From Alphaproteobacteria bacterium PA4 (GTDB lineage: Bacteria; Pseudomonadota; Alphaproteobacteria; Sphingomonadales; Sphingomonadaceae): a DNA stretch of 64,000 nucleotides. Of this stretch, positions 15,880 through 64,000 are shown in pieces. The stretch is from the NCBI GenBank assembly GCA_002256005.1, contig NKIQ01000005.1:1-64000 (forward strand). Reading direction: 5' to 3'. Below the pieces are notes generated by a model that made no database searches, had not been told where the DNA came from, and saw nothing but the letters and a program-made list of their open reading frames with translations. The position numbers and the translations under genes are program-made. Each line of letters opens with the position of its first letter. Position 1 is the stretch's first letter.

Positions 15880-17277
15880 CTAATAATGCAACGCCCGGCC
15901 ATAGGCGTCCAGCACGCTTTCATGCATCATTTCCGACAGCGTCGGGTGCGCGAACACCGTGTGCATCAGCTCCGCCTCGGTGGTTTCCAGCCCGCGGGCG
16001 ATGACATAGCCCTGGATCAGCTCGGTCACCTCGGCGCCGACCATGTGCGCACCGAGCAGCTCGCCGGTCGTCGCATCGAACACCGTCTTGATGAAGCCTT
16101 CCGCCTCGCCCAGCGCGATGGCCTTGCCATTGCCGATGAACGGGAATTTGCCGACCTTGACAGTGTGCCCGGCGGCTTTCGCCTTGGCCTCGGTCAGCCC
16201 GACGCTGGCCACCTGCGGGCGCGAATAGGTGCAGCCGGGGATGTTCCAATTGGTGAAGGCATGCGGGTGCAGCCCGGCGATGTTTTCGACGCAGACTATG
16301 CCTTCATGGCTGGCCTTGTGCGCCAGCCAGGGTGGGCCGGTGACATCACCGATGGCGTGCAGGCCGGCGACATTGGTCTGGCCATAGCCATTGACGACAA
16401 TATGGCCGCGGTTGGTTGCGACGCCCAGCGCCTCCAGCCCGATAGTCTCGGTGTTCGGCACGATGCCGATGGCGACGATGACATGGCTGAACGTCTCGAC
16501 CGCGGCCTTGCCATCGGCGGTAGTGATCGTTGCCGTCACCGCGTCCGCCCCCGGCGTCACATCGCTGACTTTCGTTGCGGACAGGATGCGCATGCCCTGC
16601 TTCGTCAGCGTCTTCGCCATGAAGGCGCTGACCTCCTCATCCTCCACCGGCAGGATGCGATCGAGCATTTCGACCACCGTCACATCGGCGCCCATGTCAT
16701 TGTAGAAGCTGGCGAATTCGATGCCGATGGCGCCGGAGCCGATGACCAGCAATTTCGTCGGCATGGCCGGCGGCACCATGGCGTGGCGATAGGTCCACAC
16801 CCGCTCGCCATCGGCCGGCACGCCGGGCAGGTCGCGGGCGCGGGCGCCGGTGGCGATAATGACGTTCTTGGCTTGCAGCACGCGGGTCTGGTCGCCGGTG
16901 GTCACGGTCACTTCGGTGGCGCCGGTCAGCGCCCCCTGCCCTTCGACCACCGTCACCTTGTTCTTCTTCATCAGCCCCTTGACGCCGCCATTCAGCTGCG
17001 CCGCCACCTTGCGGCTGCGCTCGGTGATCTTGGCGAGATCGAACGACACGCCGGTCGCCGACAGGCCATAGGCATCGGCATGGGTCATGTAGTGATAGAC
17101 TTCCGAGGTGCGCAGCAGCGCCTTGGTCGGGATGCAGCCCCAGTTGAGGCAGATGCCGCCGAGGCGCTCGCGCTCGACAATGGCGACCTTGAGGCCGAGC
17201 TGCGCGGCGCGGATGGCGGAGACGTAACCGCCGGGGCCGGAGCCGAGGATGACGAGATCGAAGGATTCGGGGGTCAT
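15880..17277 (-). CDS. lpdA: dihydrolipoyl dehydrogenase (E3)
   Basis: FAD enzyme reoxidising dihydrolipoamide in the pyruvate dehydrogenase complex. FAD-binding GSGPGGYVSAIRAAQLG, redox disulfide GGICLNWGCIPTKALL, NAD-binding GSGAIGIEFASFY, and the C-terminal His-Glu dyad region HAHPTLSEMMHE. 465 residues, normal. The ATG overlaps the DUF559 stop by 4 nt, so this gene is translationally linked to an inserted gene. Confidence 0.97.
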   Translation of the reverse strand: MTPESFDLVILGSGPGGYVSAIRAAQLGLKVAIVERERLGGICLNWGCIPTKALLRTSEVYHYMTHADAYGLSATGVSFDLAKITERSRKVAAQLNGGVKGLMKKNKVTVVEGQGALTGATEVTVTTGDQTRVLQAKNVIIATGARARDLPGVPADGERVWTYRHAMVPPAMPTKLLVIGSGAIGIEFASFYNDMGADVTVVEMLDRILPVEDEEVSAFMAKTLTKQGMRILSATKVSDVTPGADAVTATITTADGKAAVETFSHVIVAIGIVPNTETIGLEALGVATNRGHIVVNGYGQTNVAGLHAIGDVTGPPWLAHKASHEGIVCVENIAGLHPHAFTNWNIPGCTYSRPQVASVGLTEAKAKAAGHTVKVGKFPFIGNGKAIALGEAEGFIKTVFDATTGELLGAHMVGAEVTELIQGYVIARGLETTEAELMHTVFAHPTLSEMMHESVLDAYGRALHY

Positions 17278-17765
17278 GATACAACCTTTCCCTCTCCCCT
17301 TGAGGGAGAGGGCGACTCGCCGAAGGCGAGCGGGGAGAGGGGTTCGACGCGTGCGGCGTAGATCGTCGCCATCACATCATCGGGGCGATCCAGGATATCG
17401 GCGTTCCAGAAGCGCAGCACGCGATAGCCGCGGCCGGTCAGCCAGGCGGTGCGATCGGCATCGGCGGTGCTTTCGGCATGTTGCGAACCGTCGGCCTCGA
17501 CGATCAGTCGCTGCGCCTGGCAGACGAAATCCGCGATGAACGGCCCGATGGGCTGCTGGCGACGGAATTTGAAGCGTTCGAGACGCTTGGCGCGGAGCAG
17601 GTGCCAGAGCCGGGTTTCGGCTTCGGTCATGGCGCTGCGCATGGATTTGGCGCGGTCGAGGGTAACGGGTGGGTAAGAGCCCCCTCTCCCCGCTCGACGC
17701 AAGGGCGTCGAGTCGCCCTCTCCCTCAAGGGGAGAGGGAGAGTGTGTGTGGGGAGAGGGAGCCAT
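17274..17765 (-). CDS. DUF559 endonuclease-like protein framed by palindromic repeats
   Basis: Small protein of the DUF559 family, related to the very-short-patch/restriction-endonuclease fold; activity unproven. Core at about residues 41-140: MTEAETRLWHLLRAKRLE, FKFRRQQPIGPFIADFVC, then LIVEADGSQHAES (acidic EADG...QH site) and GYRVLRFWNADIL. Both tails are repeat-coded: the N-terminal PSPLEGEGDSTPLRRAGRG from the repeat at 17681-17739 and the C-terminal EPLSPLAFGESPSPSRGEG from that at 17290-17343. Start ATG 17765 overlaps the pdhC stop (GTG 17768 is possible); an internal ATG at 17642 would give the bare 122-residue core. It interrupts the usual pdhC-lpdA order, so it was probably inserted. 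Confidence 0.85.
   Translation of the reverse strand: MAPSPHTHSPSPLEGEGDSTPLRRAGRGGSYPPVTLDRAKSMRSAMTEAETRLWHLLRAKRLERFKFRRQQPIGPFIADFVCQAQRLIVEADGSQHAESTADADRTAWLTGRGYRVLRFWNADILDRPDDVMATIYAARVEPLSPLAFGESPSPSRGEGKVVS
17290..17343. repeat. family A palindrome, single copy, left of the DUF559 core
   Basis: Hairpin CCCTCTCCCC-TTGA-GGGAGAGGG followed by CGACTCG...CGAGCGGGGAGAGGGG. Orientation is that of the left half of a normal doublet. It codes for the C-terminal tail of the DUF559 protein. Confidence 0.9.
17681..17739. repeat. family A palindrome, single copy, right of the DUF559 core
   Basis: CCCCTCTCCCCGCTCG...CGAGTCG followed by the hairpin CCCTCTCCC-TCAA-GGGGAGAGGG; an inverted partner to 17290-17343. 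The two are 337 nt apart, with the DUF559 core between them in place of the usual spacer of about 25 nt. It codes for the N-terminal tail of that protein. A further partial GGGGAGAGGG lies at 17750-17760. Confidence 0.9.
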
Positions 17766-19090
17766 CACGCCACCAGCCCCAGCGGCGCCTCGATCAGCGC
17801 CTTGAACGCCGCCATCAATTCCGCGCCATCGGCGCCATCGATGGCGCGATGGTCGAAACTGCCGGTCACCGTCATCACCGTCGCGATCGCCAGCGCGTCA
17901 CCCACCACATAGGGGCGCTTCTCGCCGGCGCCGACCGCCAGGATCATGCCCTGCGGCGGGTTGATGACCGCGTCGAACTGCTTGATGCCATACATGCCGA
18001 GGTTGCTGACGGACGCAGTGCCGCCCTGATATTCATGCGGTTGCAGCTTGCCCTCGCGCGCCTTGGTCGCCAGCGCCTGCATTTCGCTGGCGATCACCGA
18101 CAGCGGCTTGGCGTCCGCGCCGACGATGATCGGCGTGATCAGGCCATTGGGCGCCGCCACCGCCACCGAGATATCGGCGCGGGTATAGCTGATCAGCTGG
18201 TCGCCGGCGAAGCTGACATTGGCCTTGGGGCATTGCCGCAGCGCCAGCGCCAGCGCCTTGATGACCATGTCGTTGACCGACAGCTTGATCTTGCGCGGCT
18301 CCAGCGCGGCGTTGAGCTCGCCGCGCAATTTCAGCAGTGCATCGATGCGGACATCATTGGTCAGGTAGAAATGCGGCACCGTCTGCTTGGCCTCGGTGAG
18401 GCGGCGGGCGATGACCTTCCTGACATTGCCGAGCTTTTCGGCGGTGTGCGGGATGTCGGTGGTGAAGGGGGCGGCGGGGGCCGGGGCTGCCGGTGCCGGT
18501 GCCGGAGCGGCGGGCTTGGCCGGCCCCTCTCCCGGCTCGGCTTTGCCGAGTCCGACCTCTCCCCGGCGGGGAGAGGTAAGGGCGGCTTCGACATCGGCAC
18601 GGACAATGCGGCCGTTGGGGCCGCTGCCGCTGAGCGTCGTCAGATCGACGCCCTGCAACTGCGCAATCCGCCTGGCCAGCGGCGAAGCGACAACACGCGC
18701 CCCATCCACCTCCCCCCGCGGGGGGGAGGTCGGACTCGGCGCAGCCGAGCCGGGAGAGGGGCTGGCATTGACCACCGGGGCAACCGGCACCTCAGCCACC
18801 ACCGGCGCCACCAGTGCCAGCGCCGGCGCGGCCTTCGCCACCACCGCCTCGCCCTCGGCGCCCAGACGCAGGATCACCTGCCCCACCGGCACGCCTTCGG
18901 TGCCCGCGGCGACGACCAGTTCGGCGACCACGCCTTCGTCGATGCTCTCCACCTCCATCGTCGCCTTGTCGGTCTCGATTTCGGCCAGTACATCGCCGGA
19001 TTTCACCGCATCGCCGATCTTGACGAGCCATTTCGACAGCGTCCCCGTCTCCATCGTCGGCGACAGCGCGGGCATGGTGATATCGATCAT
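17765..19090 (-). CDS. pdhC: pyruvate dehydrogenase E2, dihydrolipoyl acetyltransferase
   Basis: Core of the pyruvate dehydrogenase complex; transfers acetyl groups to CoA. Lipoyl domain residues 1-78 (lipoyl-Lys in ETDKATME), E3/E1-binding domain at about 138-176 ([16 protein letters not shown]...[15 protein letters not shown]), then the catalytic domain ending in the [12 protein letters not shown] active-site motif. Both linkers around the binding domain contain repeat-coded sequence: [19 protein letters not shown] before it and [18 protein letters not shown] after it. The latter runs into an Ala/Pro-rich linker. Overlaps pdhB by 4 nt. Confidence 0.97.
18524..18577. repeat. family A palindrome inside pdhC (after the E3-binding domain)
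   Basis: 54 nt, that is 18 codons, of the form CCCCTCTCCCGGCTCGG...CCGAGTCCGACCTCTCCCC-GGCGGGGAGAGGT, fully inside the reading frame of pdhC on the opposite strand. It codes for the segment [18 protein letters not shown] in the linker between binding and catalytic domains. Confidence 0.9.
18708..18761. repeat. family A palindrome inside pdhC (before the E3-binding domain)
   Basis: 54 nt, ACCTCCCCCCGCGGGGGGGAGGT followed by CGGACTCGG...CCGAGCCGGGAGAGGGG, in frame inside pdhC. It is inverted relative to 18524-18577, so the two copies flank the 130-nt segment coding for the subunit-binding domain, facing outward rather than inward as in normal doublets. Confidence 0.9.
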
Positions 19091-20451
19091 TTGTAGCAGA
19101 CCTTCTTCGCCGCCGTGACCACATCCTCGGCCTTCAGCAGCGCCAGTTTCTCCAGGTTCGCGGCATAGGGCAGCGGCACATCGACATTGGTGACACGCAG
19201 CACCGGCGCGTCGAGATCATCGAAGCCCTGCTCCATGGCCACGGCGATGATCTCGCTGGCGATCGAGCAGGTCGGCCAGCCTTCCTCCACCACCACCATG
19301 CGATTGGTCTTCTTGAGGCTCGCCAGCACCGTCGCGGTGTCGAGCGGCCGCAGCGTGCGCAGGTCGATGATCTCCGCCTCGATGCCCTGCTCGGCCAGCG
19401 TCTTCGCCGCATCGAGCGCGACGCCGACGCCGATCGAATAGCTGACCAGCGTCACATCCCTGCCCTCGCGCACGATCCGCGCCTTGCCGATGGGCACGGT
19501 GACATCAGCGCCCTCGGGCACGTCGAAGCTCTGGCCATAGAGCAGCTCGTTTTCGAGGAACACCACCGGGTCGGGCGAGCGGATCGCGCTCTTCAACAGC
19601 CCCTTGGCATCGGCGGCGCTGTACGGCGCGATGACGATCAGGCCGGGCACGCTGGCATACCAGGGCGCATAATTCTGGCTGTGCTGCGCCGCCACGCGGC
19701 TGGCGGCGCCGTTCGGCCCGCGGAACACGATCGGGCAACGCATCTGGCCGCCCGACATGTAATTGGTCTTCGCCGCCGAATTGATGATGTGGTCGATGGC
19801 CTGCATGGCGAAATTGAAGGTCATGAACTCGATGATCGGCTTCAGCCCGCCCATCGCCGCGCCGGTGCCGAGGCCGGCAAAGCCGTACTCGGTGATCGGA
19901 GTGTCGACGACGCGTTGGGCGCCAAACTCTTCGAGCAGGCCCTGCGTGACCTTGTAGGCGCCCTGATATTCGGCGACCTCCTCGCCCATCACGAAGACTT
20001 CGGGCGTGGTGCGCATTTCCTCGGCCATGGCATCGCGCAGGGCTTCGCGGACGGTCTGGCGTTTGAACGCCCCTCCCGCTTGCGGGAGGGACTGGGGCTC
20101 GACCGCCACGGGAACCGGCTTTGGCGTTTCGATGACGACGGGCGGTACGGCCATTGGGGTTTGCCCACCCCCGGCCCCTCCCGCAAGCGGGAGGGGAGAA
20201 GAAGCTTCCTCATCCTCCCCCGCAATCACCGCGATGACCGTGCCGACCTTGACGCCTTCCGACCCCGCCGCCACCGGCAGCGCCACCACCGTGCCGCCGT
20301 CATCGGCTTCCAGCTCCATCGTCGCCTTGTCGGTCTCGATCTCGGCGAGCACATCGCCGGGCTTCACGACATCGCCGACCTTGACCAGCCATTTGGCCAG
20401 CGTGCCTTCCTCCATGGTCGGCGACATGGCGGGCAGCTTGATTTCCGGCAT
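19087..20451 (-). CDS. pdhB: pyruvate dehydrogenase E1 beta with N-terminal lipoyl domain
   Basis: Thiamine-diphosphate enzyme subunit decarboxylating pyruvate. Residues 1-78 form a lipoyl domain (ETDKATMEL), as usual for alphaproteobacterial PdhB; residues about 128-454 form the transketolase-type E1 beta domain ([39 protein letters not shown]). The linker (about residues 85-128) is built from a family B palindrome pair, giving [17 protein letters not shown] and [10 protein letters not shown] around a Pro/Val stretch. ATG shares its A with the pdhA stop (TGATG). Confidence 0.97.
20069..20198. repeat. family B palindrome pair inside pdhB
   Basis: Left hairpin CCCCTCCCGC-TTGCGGGAGGG with GGGG flank and right hairpin CCCCTCCCGC-AAGCGGGAGGGG, inverted around about 67 nt, all within the pdhB reading frame. 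The same sequence family is inserted in uvrA at 62872-62970. Differs from family A by lacking the CGGACTCG...CGAG part. Confidence 0.88.
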
Positions 20452-27370: not shown

Positions 27371-27387
27371 CGAGACACTCCGACTTT

Positions 27388-27521
27388 CCTCTCCCGCCTG
27401 CGGGAGAGGCGACTCGCGCGCCAGCGCGGCGGGTGAGGGTGTACGCAGACTTCGACGCGTGAATACACCCTCACCCGGGCCGGCTTCGCCGTCTCTCGCC
27501 TCTCCCGCAAGCGGGAGAGGT
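27388..27521. repeat. palindromic doublet, family A variant
   Basis: CCTCTCCCGC-CTGCGGGAGAGG with CGACTCGCGC...GCGGGTGAGGGTGT, then an inverted copy ACACCCTCACCC...CGCCTCTCCCGC-AAGCGGGAGAGG. Between ridA and pntB ends; the variant with GTGAGGGTGT arms recurs at 36530-36664. Confidence 0.88.
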
Positions 27522-49612: not shown

Positions 49613-49616
49613 AAAT

Positions 49617-49748
49617 ACCTCTCCCTGCCGGGGAGAGGTCGGACTCGGGCTTGCCCGAGCCGGGAGAGGGGCGGCGCATGTGGCCGCGTGAGAACCCCTC
49701 TCCCGGCTCGCCTGCGGCGAGTCCGACCTCCCCCCGGCGGGGGGAGGT
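49617..49748. repeat. palindromic repeat doublet, family A
   Basis: ACCTCTCCC-TGCCGGGGAGAGGT, CGGACTCGGG...CCCGAGCCGGGAGAGGGG, spacer GCGGCGCATGTGGCCGCG, then inverted CCCCTCTCCCGGCTCG...CGAGTCCGACCTCCCCCC-GGCGGGGGGAGGT. Fills the space between convergent genes, so it may act as a bidirectional terminator. Confidence 0.92.
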
Positions 49749-50738: not shown

Positions 50739-50975
50739 GAGCAAGCGCAGCTTGCGCGCAGACTCGCGCAAGCCCGGCCAGCCGGGTGGCAAAGCCGCAG
50801 CTTTGCCGAACCGGTCTGACGTCAGCCGCGGCTTTGCCGCGGCCCTTCTCCCCCGCCCTGCAAGGGAGGGGGTCGGGGGGAGGGTCGGTGGTACAGGCGC
50901 CGCCCTTCCCCGCTGAAATCGGCACATGCGGGGAGAACCCTCCCCCCAGCCCCCTCCCTTGCAGGGAGGGAGAGC
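50739..50975. repeat. array of mixed palindromes after ppa
   Basis: Short hairpins GCAAGC-gca-GCTTGC (about 50743-50757), AAAGC-cgca-GCTTT (50793-50806) and CCGCGGC-ttt-GCCGCGG (50826-50842) are followed by a pair CCGCCCTGCAAGGGAGGGGGTCGGGG ... CCCCCAGCCCCCTCCCTTGCAGGGAGGG in inverted orientation around about 80 nt. No coding potential that I trust. Lies between convergent genes. Confidence 0.75.
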
Positions 50976-58269: not shown

Positions 58270-58277
58270 GCCGCGCC

Positions 58278-58405
58278 TCCCTCCCCCCTGCGGGGAGGGC
58301 GACTCACCGGAAGTGAGCGGGGTGGGGGTTGCTCATGTGGCAACGCGTGTAACCCCCACCCCGCTCGGCTGAAGCCGAGTCGCCCTCCCCGCAGGGGGGA
58401 GGGAG
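58278..58405. repeat. palindromic repeat doublet, family A variant
   Basis: CTCCCTCCCCCC-TGCGGGGAGGG, CGACTCACCGGAAGTGAGCGGGGTGGGGGTT, spacer, inverted AACCCCCACCCCGCTCGG...CCGAGTCGCCCTCCCC-GCAGGGGGGAGGGAG. Between convergent genes; same subtype as 45037-45150 but complete. Confidence 0.9.
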
Positions 58406-62151: not shown

Positions 62152-64000
62152 ATGCTGACTCACATCCAGGTGCGGGGTGCCCGCGAGCACAACCTCAAGG
62201 GCGTCGATGTCGACCTGCCCAAGAACAGCCTGACCGTCATCACCGGCCTCAGCGGCTCCGGCAAATCCTCCCTCGCCTTTGATACCATCTATGCCGAGGG
62301 GCAGCGCCGTTACGTCGAATCCCTGTCGGCCTATGCCCGCCAGTTCCTCGAACTGATGTCGAAGCCCGATGTCGACCATATCGAGGGGCTGAGCCCGGCC
62401 ATCAGCATCGAGCAGAAGACGACGTCGAAGAACCCGCGCTCGACGGTGGCCACGGTGACCGAGATCTATGATTACATGCGGCTCCTGTGGGCGCGTGTCG
62501 GCGTGCCCTACAGCCCCGCCACCGGCCTGCCGATCACCGCGCAGACGGTCAGCCAGATGGTCGACCGCGTCATGGCCCTGCCGGAAGGCACGCGGCTGTT
62601 CCTGCTCGCCCCCATCGTGCGTGGCCGCAAGGGCGAGTACAGGAAGGAGCTGGCCCAGCTGCAGAAGGACGGCTTCACCCGGGTGAAGATCGACGGCGCG
62701 TTTCACGACATCGACGCGGCGCCGGCGCTCGACAAGAAGTACAAGCACGACATCGACGTGGTGGTCGACCGCATCGTCGTGAAGCCCGGCCTCGAAAGCC
62801 GCCTCGCCGAAAGCTTCGAAACGGCGCTGAAGCTGGCGGAAGGGTTGGCCATCGCGGAGCTCCTGGACGCGGCTCCCCTCCCGCTTGCGGGAGGGGCTGG
62901 GGGTGGGGAAGGCGCAACGTCGGCGCCCGACTCGCCCAACCCCGACCCCTCCCGCAAGCGGGAGGGGAGCAGGATCACCTTCTCCGAAAAATTCGCCTGC
63001 CCGGTCTCCGGCTTCACCATCGCCGAGATCGAGCCGCGGCTGTTCTCCTTCAACGCCCCGCAGGGCGCCTGCCCGGCCTGCGACGGCCTCGGCGAAAAGC
63101 TGCTGTTCGATGATGATTTGATGGTGCCCAACCATGCGCTCAGCATCGAAAAGGGCGCGGTCATGCCCTGGGCCAAGTCCAACCCGCCCAGCCCCTATTA
63201 CATGCAGGTGCTGGGCAGCGTCGCCCGCGCGCTGAATTTCAGCCTGAAGACGCCCTGGGCCGATCTGCCGGCGGCGGCGCAGCACGCCGTCCTCCACGGC
63301 ACCGGCGGCAAGGCCATTCCGCTGCGCTTCGAGGATGGCCGCAAGGCCTATGAGGTGGTGAAGCCCTTCGAAGGCGTCGTCGCCAACCTCGAAAAGCGGC
63401 TGCGCGCCACCGAAAGCGCCTGGATGCGCGAGGAACTCTCCCGCTACCAATCCGCCGCGCCCTGCGAAGTCTGCCACGGCGACCGGCTGAAGCCCGAGGC
63501 GCTGGCGGTGAAGATCGCCGGCGAAACCATCGCCGATGCCGTGCGCCGGCCGGTCAGCCAAGCCTTCGCCTGGGCCAAGGGCCTTGCCGAGAAACTCACC
63601 CCCAAGCAGCGCGCCATCGGCGAGCGCATCCTCAAGGAAATCATCGAGCGGCTCGGCTTTCTCGACAATGTCGGCCTCGATTACCTCAATCTCGATCGCA
63701 AGTCCGGCACGCTGTCGGGCGGCGAAAGCCAGCGCATCCGCCTCGCCTCCCAGATCGGCTCCGGCCTGTCGGGCGTGCTCTATGTGCTCGACGAGCCCAG
63801 CATCGGCCTCCACCAGCGCGACAATGACCGGCTGCTCGTCACGCTGCGCCGCCTGCGCGATCTCGGCAACACCGTGCTCGTCGTGGAGCATGACGAGGAT
63901 GCCATCCGCACCGCGGACTATATCGTCGACATGGGGCCGGGCGCCGGCGTGCATGGCGGCGCCGTGGTGGCGCGCGGCAGCCTTGCCGACATTCTCGCCA
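62152..64000 (+). CDS. uvrA: excinuclease ABC subunit A (5' part; runs off the window)
   Basis: Damage-recognition ATPase of nucleotide excision repair. Walker [21 protein letters not shown] (20 residues), first zinc-binding CPVSGF...CPACDG, then [16 protein letters not shown] signature [19 protein letters not shown] and Walker [13 protein letters not shown]. After [10 protein letters not shown] an insert of about 33 residues ([13 protein letters not shown]...DPSRKREG) coded by a palindromic repeat separates it from [14 protein letters not shown], where other UvrA proteins have only a short loop. 616 codons are visible; the second ABC half lies beyond the edge. Confidence 0.97.
62872..62970. 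repeat. family B palindrome pair inserted in frame in uvrA
   Basis: GCTCCCCTCCCGC-TTGCGGGAGGGG...GGGG and CCCC..CCCCTCCCGC-AAGCGGGAGGGGAGC, inverted around a 36-nt spacer. Exactly 99 nt, so 33 codons, without an in-frame stop. Same element type as in pdhB at 20069-20198. Confidence 0.92.

Follow-up and report, generated by a model that had tools for sequence, protein, structure and literature searches.

The question raised by the 64,000-nucleotide stretch of Alphaproteobacteria bacterium PA4 analysed here (contig NKIQ01000005.1, positions 1 to 64,000; hereafter the window) is why a gene for a protein of the DUF559 family lies between two inverted palindromes, here called arms, at the joint of pdhC and lpdA. 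The first-pass annotation of this DNA proposed that DUF559 proteins could be the partner of the palindromes, comparable to the REP-associated tyrosine transposases (RAYTs) and their repetitive extragenic palindromic sequences (REPs). This comparison is supported by what we find: inverted palindromes frame the majority of the DUF559 genes compared, across Pseudomonadota and a set of genomes from Cyanobacteriota, with controls near zero. We lean towards reading the gene and its two arms together as a unit within a repeat system of two components, in which the nuclease would cut and doublets of arms would spread.

The unit between pdhC and lpdA

The features of the unit and of the two genes around it are as follows.

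17274 to 17768, minus strand: DUF559 gene for a predicted nuclease (Vsr/EDxHD-like), based on the list of open reading frames (ORFs), PF04480 and purifying selection among six pdhC-lpdA copies
17355 to 17657, minus strand: predicted DUF559 catalytic core with the motif E-x-D-G-x-x-H, based on PF04480 (130.9 bits), invariant residues and an AlphaFold2 model
17290 to 17343, plus strand: palindromic arm on the lpdA side, with hairpin CCCTCTCCC..GGGAGAGGG, second hairpin GACTCG..CGAG and tag GGGGAGAGGGG towards the gene
17681 to 17739, minus strand: palindromic arm on the pdhC side, an inverted copy with its tag towards the gene, based on repeat alignment and DNA folding
17765 to 19090, minus strand: pdhC (dihydrolipoamide acetyltransferase), upstream of the insertion site
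15880 to 17277, minus strand: lpdA (dihydrolipoamide dehydrogenase), downstream of the insertion site

The DUF559 reading frame is intact and encodes 163-164 amino acids, with candidate starts at GTG 17768 and ATG 17765, of which the ATG is the likely one. The protein belongs to PF04480 (E 3.8e-38), its core scoring 130.9 bits against a curated cut-off of 20.6, and this is the single Pfam family above cut-off: PF18741 remains below it, and the Vsr model PF03852 matches neither this protein nor anything else in the PA4 genome. A comparison with PADLOC gave nothing weighty: the window protein reached E 0.039, L001 matched DpdF at 5e-4 along a short segment, and L009 had no match.

The two arms are inverted copies of each other (57 against 62 nucleotides aligned), with an inverted score of 37.5 and a direct score of 11.5, so that the annotated doublet orientation around 337 nucleotides (17344-17680) is confirmed. 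The acidic EADG...QH site recognised earlier in the core is read as VEADGSQH, and both palindromes do lie inside the reading frame and are translated as the tails of the protein, as had been claimed. Of the ATGA-type overlaps described for the two neighbours, the one at the start of lpdA holds, where the DUF559 stop forms ATGA, whereas at pdhC the DUF559 start overlaps the stop codon as TGATG instead. Six genomes of the genus carry an intact copy at pdhC-lpdA; the right arm is open as the C-terminal tail in all six, in a frame that varies, and the 3' end of the gene overlaps lpdA in five. These six copies are under purifying selection, the ratio of nonsynonymous to synonymous substitution rates (dN/dS) being 0.08-0.48 in 14 of the 15 pairs; dS is high throughout, and the remaining pair, saturated in dS, was printed as 0.00.

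As DNA, each arm folds into two hairpins. From the outside inwards come the hairpin CCCTCTCCCCTTGAGGGAGAGGG, the second hairpin with GACTCG..CGAG and the G-rich tag facing the gene. The second hairpin contains GAGTC in both window arms and in others of their type; GANTC is the site methylated by CcrM in alphaproteobacteria.

Palindromes around DUF559 genes

Palindromes were sought in the 200-bp flanks of DUF559 cores, with a threshold score of 18. Relatives of the window protein entered as the best 80 of 188 loci, and the other genome sets gave the locus of each genome's best match; the resulting 173 cores were reduced to 163 by removing four duplicates and six cores with short flanks. Inverted palindromes on both sides score at least 18 at 114 of these 163 non-redundant loci, the opposite of the lack of association elsewhere that the first-pass annotation had named as fatal to the link. 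The tag points towards the gene in 79 arms, away from it in 8 and both ways in 1, with 45 of 133 unscored. Direct repeats are also common (55 of the 163 loci at 18 or more), in part since entire doublets lie next to the DUF559 gene at some of these loci.

None of 2280 random positions, taken around 69 of the DUF559 loci, reaches 18, and 4 of 864 gene-like ORFs around DUF559 loci do. In a single test within the same class, flanking palindromes were present at 16 of 28 DUF559 genes and at 0 of 24 Vsr genes, after removal of 1 of 29 and 6 of 30 loci, respectively, that were cut. The PA4 genome has nine DUF559 matches, six of them with both-sided inverted palindromes scoring at least 33.5. Four multi-copy genomes supplied another 20 copies, of which 17 have inverted palindromes on both sides. 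The contigs of five loci (L007, L022, L027, L033, L036) stop within a few hundred bases of the DUF559 gene, which is what assemblies broken by the repeats would show, and such copies may be undercounted.

We regard the association between palindromes and DUF559 genes as practically certain. Its trivial explanation would be an old operon gene that came to lie by chance amid dense palindromes, and palindromes are indeed frequent in the PA4 genome, with 88 exact matches to one stem. The random-position, ORF and Vsr controls nevertheless exclude it; moreover, the palindromes come with the gene at pdhC-lpdA, where the decayed copy of genome G007 retains both arms around a gutted gene. The probability left to chance is negligible.

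Pairing of protein type and arm type

If enzyme and repeat belong together, similar proteins should carry similar arms. Over the 133 loci scoring at least 18, to which these tests were limited, protein similarity and arm similarity correlate in between-genome pairs (r 0.42, 8718 pairs). When arms were shuffled among the copies within five multi-copy genomes, the mean fell to 0.048 against an observed r of 0.431, which 0 of 2000 shuffles reached. The arms of the nearest outside protein best match those of the right copy in 19 of 26 cases, with about 5 expected, the right copy not ranking first in the other 7. Many of these nearest outside proteins sit at orthologous sites; with every pair sharing a homologous flanking ORF excluded, 15 of the 26 copies rank first and 11 do not, and r is 0.361 against a mean of 0.024 (1 of 5000 shuffles). 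This residual r of 0.361 means that protein and arm type stay together beyond descent at one site, and we hold with high confidence that they form cognate pairs.

Bare doublets

Doublets that enclose no gene also occur. By eye, the window contains about eight of these bare doublets and several single arms; six are listed here with their types, P and Q being labels of this analysis.

58277 to 58405, no strand: bare doublet with the arm type of the PA4 DUF559 gene L008 (DNA fold z -13.3)
62872 to 62970, no strand: bare doublet with the arm type of the DUF559 gene L003 (DNA fold z -9.7)
50850 to 50972, no strand: bare doublet with the arm type of the DUF559 genes L007 and L210
44040 to 44171, no strand: bare doublet of type P, based on DNA folding; no both-sided P-type gene among the nine PA4 copies
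49616 to 49748, no strand: bare doublet of type P
27387 to 27521, no strand: bare doublet of type Q, as around L015, L017 and L023, the nearest PA4 protein relative being L002

The doublet types of L008, L003 and L007 match DUF559 genes of the same genome, and a single-hairpin fold was obtained for three of the bare doublets, with z from -9.7 to -13.3. Under strict criteria, 462 kb of the PA4 genome, the window included, yielded eight doublets with inward tags, both arms being of one type in 8 of 8, with spacers of 22-26 nucleotides in seven and 51 in one. In the second hairpin, the structure is kept while the sequence changes: 32 of 33 distinct tips have at least two pairs, with a mean of 3.24 pairs against 0.51 in shuffled sequences.

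Hairpin numbers across genomes

Hairpins were counted as exact matches to one stem, CCTCTCCC and GGGAGAGG separated by 2-6 nucleotides, in a 60-genome set that includes PA4 and in a 142-genome class set, of which PA4 was left out when the groups were compared, with DUF559 matches of at least 60 bits and counts compiled by hand. Three or more hairpins occur in 33 of 38 genomes with DUF559 against 3 of 22 without it in the 60-genome set (p 2e-8), and in 24 of 36 against 3 of 105 in the class set (p 3e-15); within the genus alone (19 genomes with DUF559, 5 without) the contrast is weaker (p 0.012). A reversed control pattern occurs 0-1 times per genome. Two (G007, G064) of the six hairpin-bearing genomes without DUF559 have weak DUF559-like fragments, and 5 of the 38 DUF559 genomes of the 60-genome set have fewer than three hairpins, several loci having other stems.

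A different mobiliser, be it a RAYT or an insertion-sequence transposase, might move the palindromes and leave DUF559 irrelevant, as RAYTs are proposed to do in other bacteria (PMC3116915, PMC8266576). A Y1/RAYT transposase (PF01797) is, however, absent from the PA4 genome, by which we reject a RAYT as the mobiliser here, and is present in 10 of the 60 genomes and 1 of 24 of the genus, in a search confined to the Y1 family. The arm tags, read by eye, are GGGGAGAGGGG, GGGGTGAGGGG, GGGGGTGGGG and similar, and are neither GTAG nor CGTC; the arms match DUF559 clades. With neither the Y1 enzyme nor the GTAG/CGTC tag, the DUF559 unit is not a RAYT system, and we consider any other mobiliser very improbable.

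Distribution of the units

Flanked DUF559 loci occur in Sphingomonadales, Devosia, Labrys, a member of Comamonadaceae, Lysobacterales, Pseudoxanthomonas and Methylobacter, some members being unflanked. In the phylum set, 86 of 249 genomes have DUF559 matches, and in the Cyanobacteriota set 104 of 146 do. The latter set was drawn from the phylum of G549, a Gastranaerophilales genome and as such one of the Cyanobacteriota. Inverted palindromes accompany 22 of 30 DUF559 loci of the Cyanobacteriota set, and 4 of 1082 shifted positions (39 loci) in its control. The arms stay G+C-rich there, as in CCCTCTCCTTGGGAGAGGGTTAGGGTGAGGG of L320, though 26 of the 30 loci have 33-41% G+C; two loci at about 0.66 (L330, L335) may stem from other organisms. 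The arm consensus is similar in Pseudomonadota and in the Cyanobacteriota set.

Three of eight stretches from a plasmid collection reach 18 (L290, L291 and L293, from S. meliloti Ak57, A. lipoferum and a Deinococcus plasmid). Both-sided palindromes are absent from L286-L289, which represent A. brasilense (two records), one of two places in Sinorhizobium K101, and E. coli. On the cyanobacterial plasmid pAQ6, the DUF559 gene (L292, 1953-2318) lies amid another kind of repeat, CCCCGATTCGGGGGCTAGGGGG, mostly direct.

Sites of insertion

At the pdhC-lpdA joint, 21 genomes of the genus, PA4 included, could be compared: six have the intact unit, one a decayed unit, seven no insert and seven an unrelated small gene. 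The joints with no insert leave 8-11 nucleotides between the genes in six cases and 41 in one. The unit is present or absent as a whole, and since only part of the 21 genomes have it, DUF559 is rejected as a fixed ancestral member of the operon; the other outcome that could have broken the proposed link, the gene being ancestral at this joint in every relative, falls with it. The seven relatives with unrelated small genes (L192, L175, L178, L183-L185, L189) show no palindromes at the joint, and the small genes of L192 resemble, by eye, an antitoxin and a PIN-type toxin pair. Small insertions seem to favour the pdhC-lpdA overlap.

A second site, intergenic and in another genus, was compared at 28 loci, chosen from 119 genomes searched for having both flanks. 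DUF559 is present at ten of them and a bare doublet with like arms at five; of the others, eleven carry palindromes from different families, one has a lone hairpin and one is mixed. The empty doublet that had been looked for at the place of a unit thus exists at this site and is missing at pdhC-lpdA, where the idea of a gene inserted into a standing doublet finds no support, no relative having a bare doublet there. Two further observations concern this region of comparison. Compared with L237-L243, the DUF559 gene of L271 points the other way although its outer arms are the same, which looks like an inversion through recombination of the arms, and in related genomes (L276-L278, L280, L282-L285) another palindrome family, GATCTCCCCC..GGGGGAGATGGCCGGCAGGCCAGAGGGG, occupies the intergenic site of the DUF559 unit.

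Units also stand in frame inside proteins, which were named by reading the sequence alone. In the Cyanobacteriota set, DUF559 and its arms lie inside PriA, just ahead of the Walker A motif, at six loci (L311, L313, L315, L323, L326, L327); with IspE, one unit inside and one in front in L308 and one in front in L317; behind a radical-SAM maturase-like protein in L312; and inside other proteins in L297 and L328. Translated, the in-frame arms give linkers, PSPQPSPARGEG and PSPLAGEGRVRG among them. The window also has single arms in frame, within PdhC (about 18524-18577 and 18707-18761), and an arm pair is in frame within the lipoyl-bearing E1 beta (20069-20197).

The strongest rival to our reading is that of a homing-type passenger: the palindromes would spread by other means, and DUF559 would cut bare doublets and be copied into their spacer with the arms serving as homology. 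The presence and absence of the unit at the two sites is compatible with homing into empty alleles; bare doublets and same-arm DUF559 units share one site in a genus, where the gene was once reversed, and the homing endonuclease I-Bth0305I is close by both sequence and fold. The in-frame units of PriA fit as well, their position next to the Walker A motif resembling intein sites. Nonetheless, the target of a passenger should exist alone, and genomes with at least three hairpins and no DUF559 are rare (the 3 of 105 and 3 of 22 given above); the lack of recent DUF559 copies within a genome and of bare doublets at pdhC-lpdA in relatives also speak against it. We judge this explanation unlikely, if less so than the other alternatives.

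Fold of the enzyme and comparison with known systems

The AlphaFold2 model of the DUF559 core has a predicted local distance difference test score (pLDDT) of 89. Its first Foldseek match is 3hrl, an uncharacterised endonuclease-like protein, followed by I-Bth0305I (3r3p, E 2.6e-5) and 1vsr (E 4.5e-4), and sequence profiles recover 3hrl at 5.7e-38 and 3r3p at 1.5e-4. Across 20 aligned sequences, E54, D56, G57 and H60 do not vary. On this modelling, DUF559 is a predicted nuclease of the Vsr / I-Bth0305I (EDxHD) fold.

With I-Bth0305I the protein shares the fold and a detectable sequence relation, but DUF559 genes are flanked by palindromic arms and lie at many unrelated sites. No intron or intein was recognised around the window gene, where no tool search was made. 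With Vsr it has the fold in common (1vsr), whereas PF03852 genes have no palindromic flanks (the 0 of 24 above). VsrA of Caulobacter is a DUF559 protein with a reported host repair role (PMC12907096). A further explanation would be that DUF559 is a Vsr-like mismatch or repair nuclease under host selection and that the palindromes are its regulatory hairpins or only mark tolerated sites. It draws on the purifying selection of the pdhC-lpdA copies and on DR_0221, whose expression value changed in a Deinococcus methylation mutant according to PMC6712171. It would leave unexplained the matching bare doublets elsewhere, the hairpin numbers that track DUF559 across genomes and the palindrome-free Vsr genes of the same class, and we find it improbable as the whole explanation. 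A host repair role like that of VsrA (PMC12907096) may exist alongside a role in the repeats.

As for repeat systems, the closest likeness is to REPINs (REP doublets forming hairpins) and their RAYTs. In both cases, inverted palindrome doublets with a short spacer and a tag at one end can fold as one hairpin, a low-copy cognate gene is flanked by its own repeat type, and enzyme and repeat co-vary; the doublet, tag, cognate-gene and co-evolution features of REPIN-RAYT systems are those described in PMC3116915, PMC8266576 and PMC3733652. The differences are that the enzyme here is a DUF559 protein of predicted Vsr/EDxHD fold and not a Y1 HUH transposase, that the tag is GGGGTGAGGGG-like and not GTAG/CGTC, that many arms have two hairpins, and that the DUF559 arm consensus is similar in Pseudomonadota and the Cyanobacteriota set.

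A gene between terminal inverted repeats, with gene-less derivatives that keep the same ends, also recalls TIRtrons and miniature inverted-repeat transposable elements (MITEs), as described in PMC3733652 and PMC10969869. Unlike TIRtrons and insertion sequences, the DUF559 unit has no transposase domain and no near-identical gene copies, two marks that an insertion sequence would show, and no target-site duplication could be fixed. The CIR repeats of Caulobacter, compared by description only, are likewise MITE-like alphaproteobacterial repeats, and the part of PMC10969869 at hand names no mobiliser for them. By analogy, the best reading of the DUF559 unit is that it would work like a REPIN-RAYT system with an unrelated enzyme. 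CIR elements have an inverted-repeat layout and are tied to GANTC sites; the GAGTC of the window arms is reminiscent of them.

Proposed mechanism

A low-copy, maintained nuclease gene together with matching multi-copy doublets is the REPIN-RAYT pattern (PMC3116915, PMC8266576), and on this ground we take DUF559 as the cognate enzyme. Cutting is what we infer from the association because of the fold. DUF559 quite probably acts on the palindromes; that it spreads or maintains them is somewhat more probable than the opposite, and a single-stranded hairpin as its substrate is less likely than not.

In the scheme that we propose, each DUF559 protein would recognise its own arm type, that is, the G-rich hairpin and the G-rich tag, and would cut the arm or the adjacent DNA, after which host repair or replication would copy doublets elsewhere. 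Bare doublets, two arms with a spacer of mostly 22-26 nucleotides, would be non-autonomous, standing to the DUF559 gene as REPINs stand to RAYTs, and the DUF559-bearing unit would be the rare full form of the system. About one DUF559 copy per arm type would be kept in each genome under purifying selection, and the units would settle at tolerant sites, such as gene ends, start/stop overlaps and in-frame linkers.

Several results weigh against this two-component reading. Forty-nine of the 163 DUF559 loci remain below the threshold of 18, as do five of the eight plasmid-collection stretches and the PA4 copies L002 and L006, L007 being truncated by the contig end; the nearest relatives of L002 (L015, L017, L020, L023) and of L007 (L210), in other genomes of the genus, are palindrome-flanked. 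Type P doublets are common in the PA4 genome, yet it has no both-sided P-type gene, and arms of types L005 and L009 were not found in the 462-kb sample. Fewer than three hairpins, with one stem counted genome-wide, were found in 12 of the 36 DUF559 genomes of the class set. Part of the match between arms and proteins comes from shared descent at orthologous sites, and in genome G071 two copies, L196 and L198, have one arm type in common.

The marks of movement weigh on the same side. None of the 14 relatives without the unit has a bare doublet at pdhC-lpdA, and no exact target-site duplication was fixed at the sites compared: in G011 the pdhC-lpdA unit has ATGA on both sides, which may be just stop and start codons, and other sites are too diverged. 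The unit of S. meliloti Ak57 is also present in K101 and C101 (upstream gene 97% identical), and Shinella (87%), which lacks a unit of this type, yields no exact joint. Finally, between DUF559 copies of the same genome, identity peaks at 48-65% over five multi-copy genomes, so that the gene is not visibly spreading now; compared with the 67-85% of six orthologue-like pairs, this indicates old copies and not a burst.

Significance

DUF559 is frequent and still listed as of 'unknown function' in Pfam. In the open-licence literature consulted we found neither a published link between DUF559 and palindromes nor a named mobiliser for the G-rich palindromes, and one may be in print elsewhere. The broadest form of our proposal, to which we give slightly less than an even chance, is that DUF559 nucleases would be the makers of widespread G-rich palindromes (hairpins of the CCCTCTCCC type that bear a tag of the GGGTGAGGG type), as a broad mobile system with traits of homing endonucleases. 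The pairing makes enzyme and repeat testable together, as the sequence predicts, type by type, which DUF559 protein would act on which repeat.

If the two-component reading is true, arms that can be translated would let nuclease units establish themselves even within genes, priA and ispE among them. The pairing has a bearing on the origin of palindromes inside proteins, and the REPIN-RAYT way of life would have arisen also with an unrelated enzyme.

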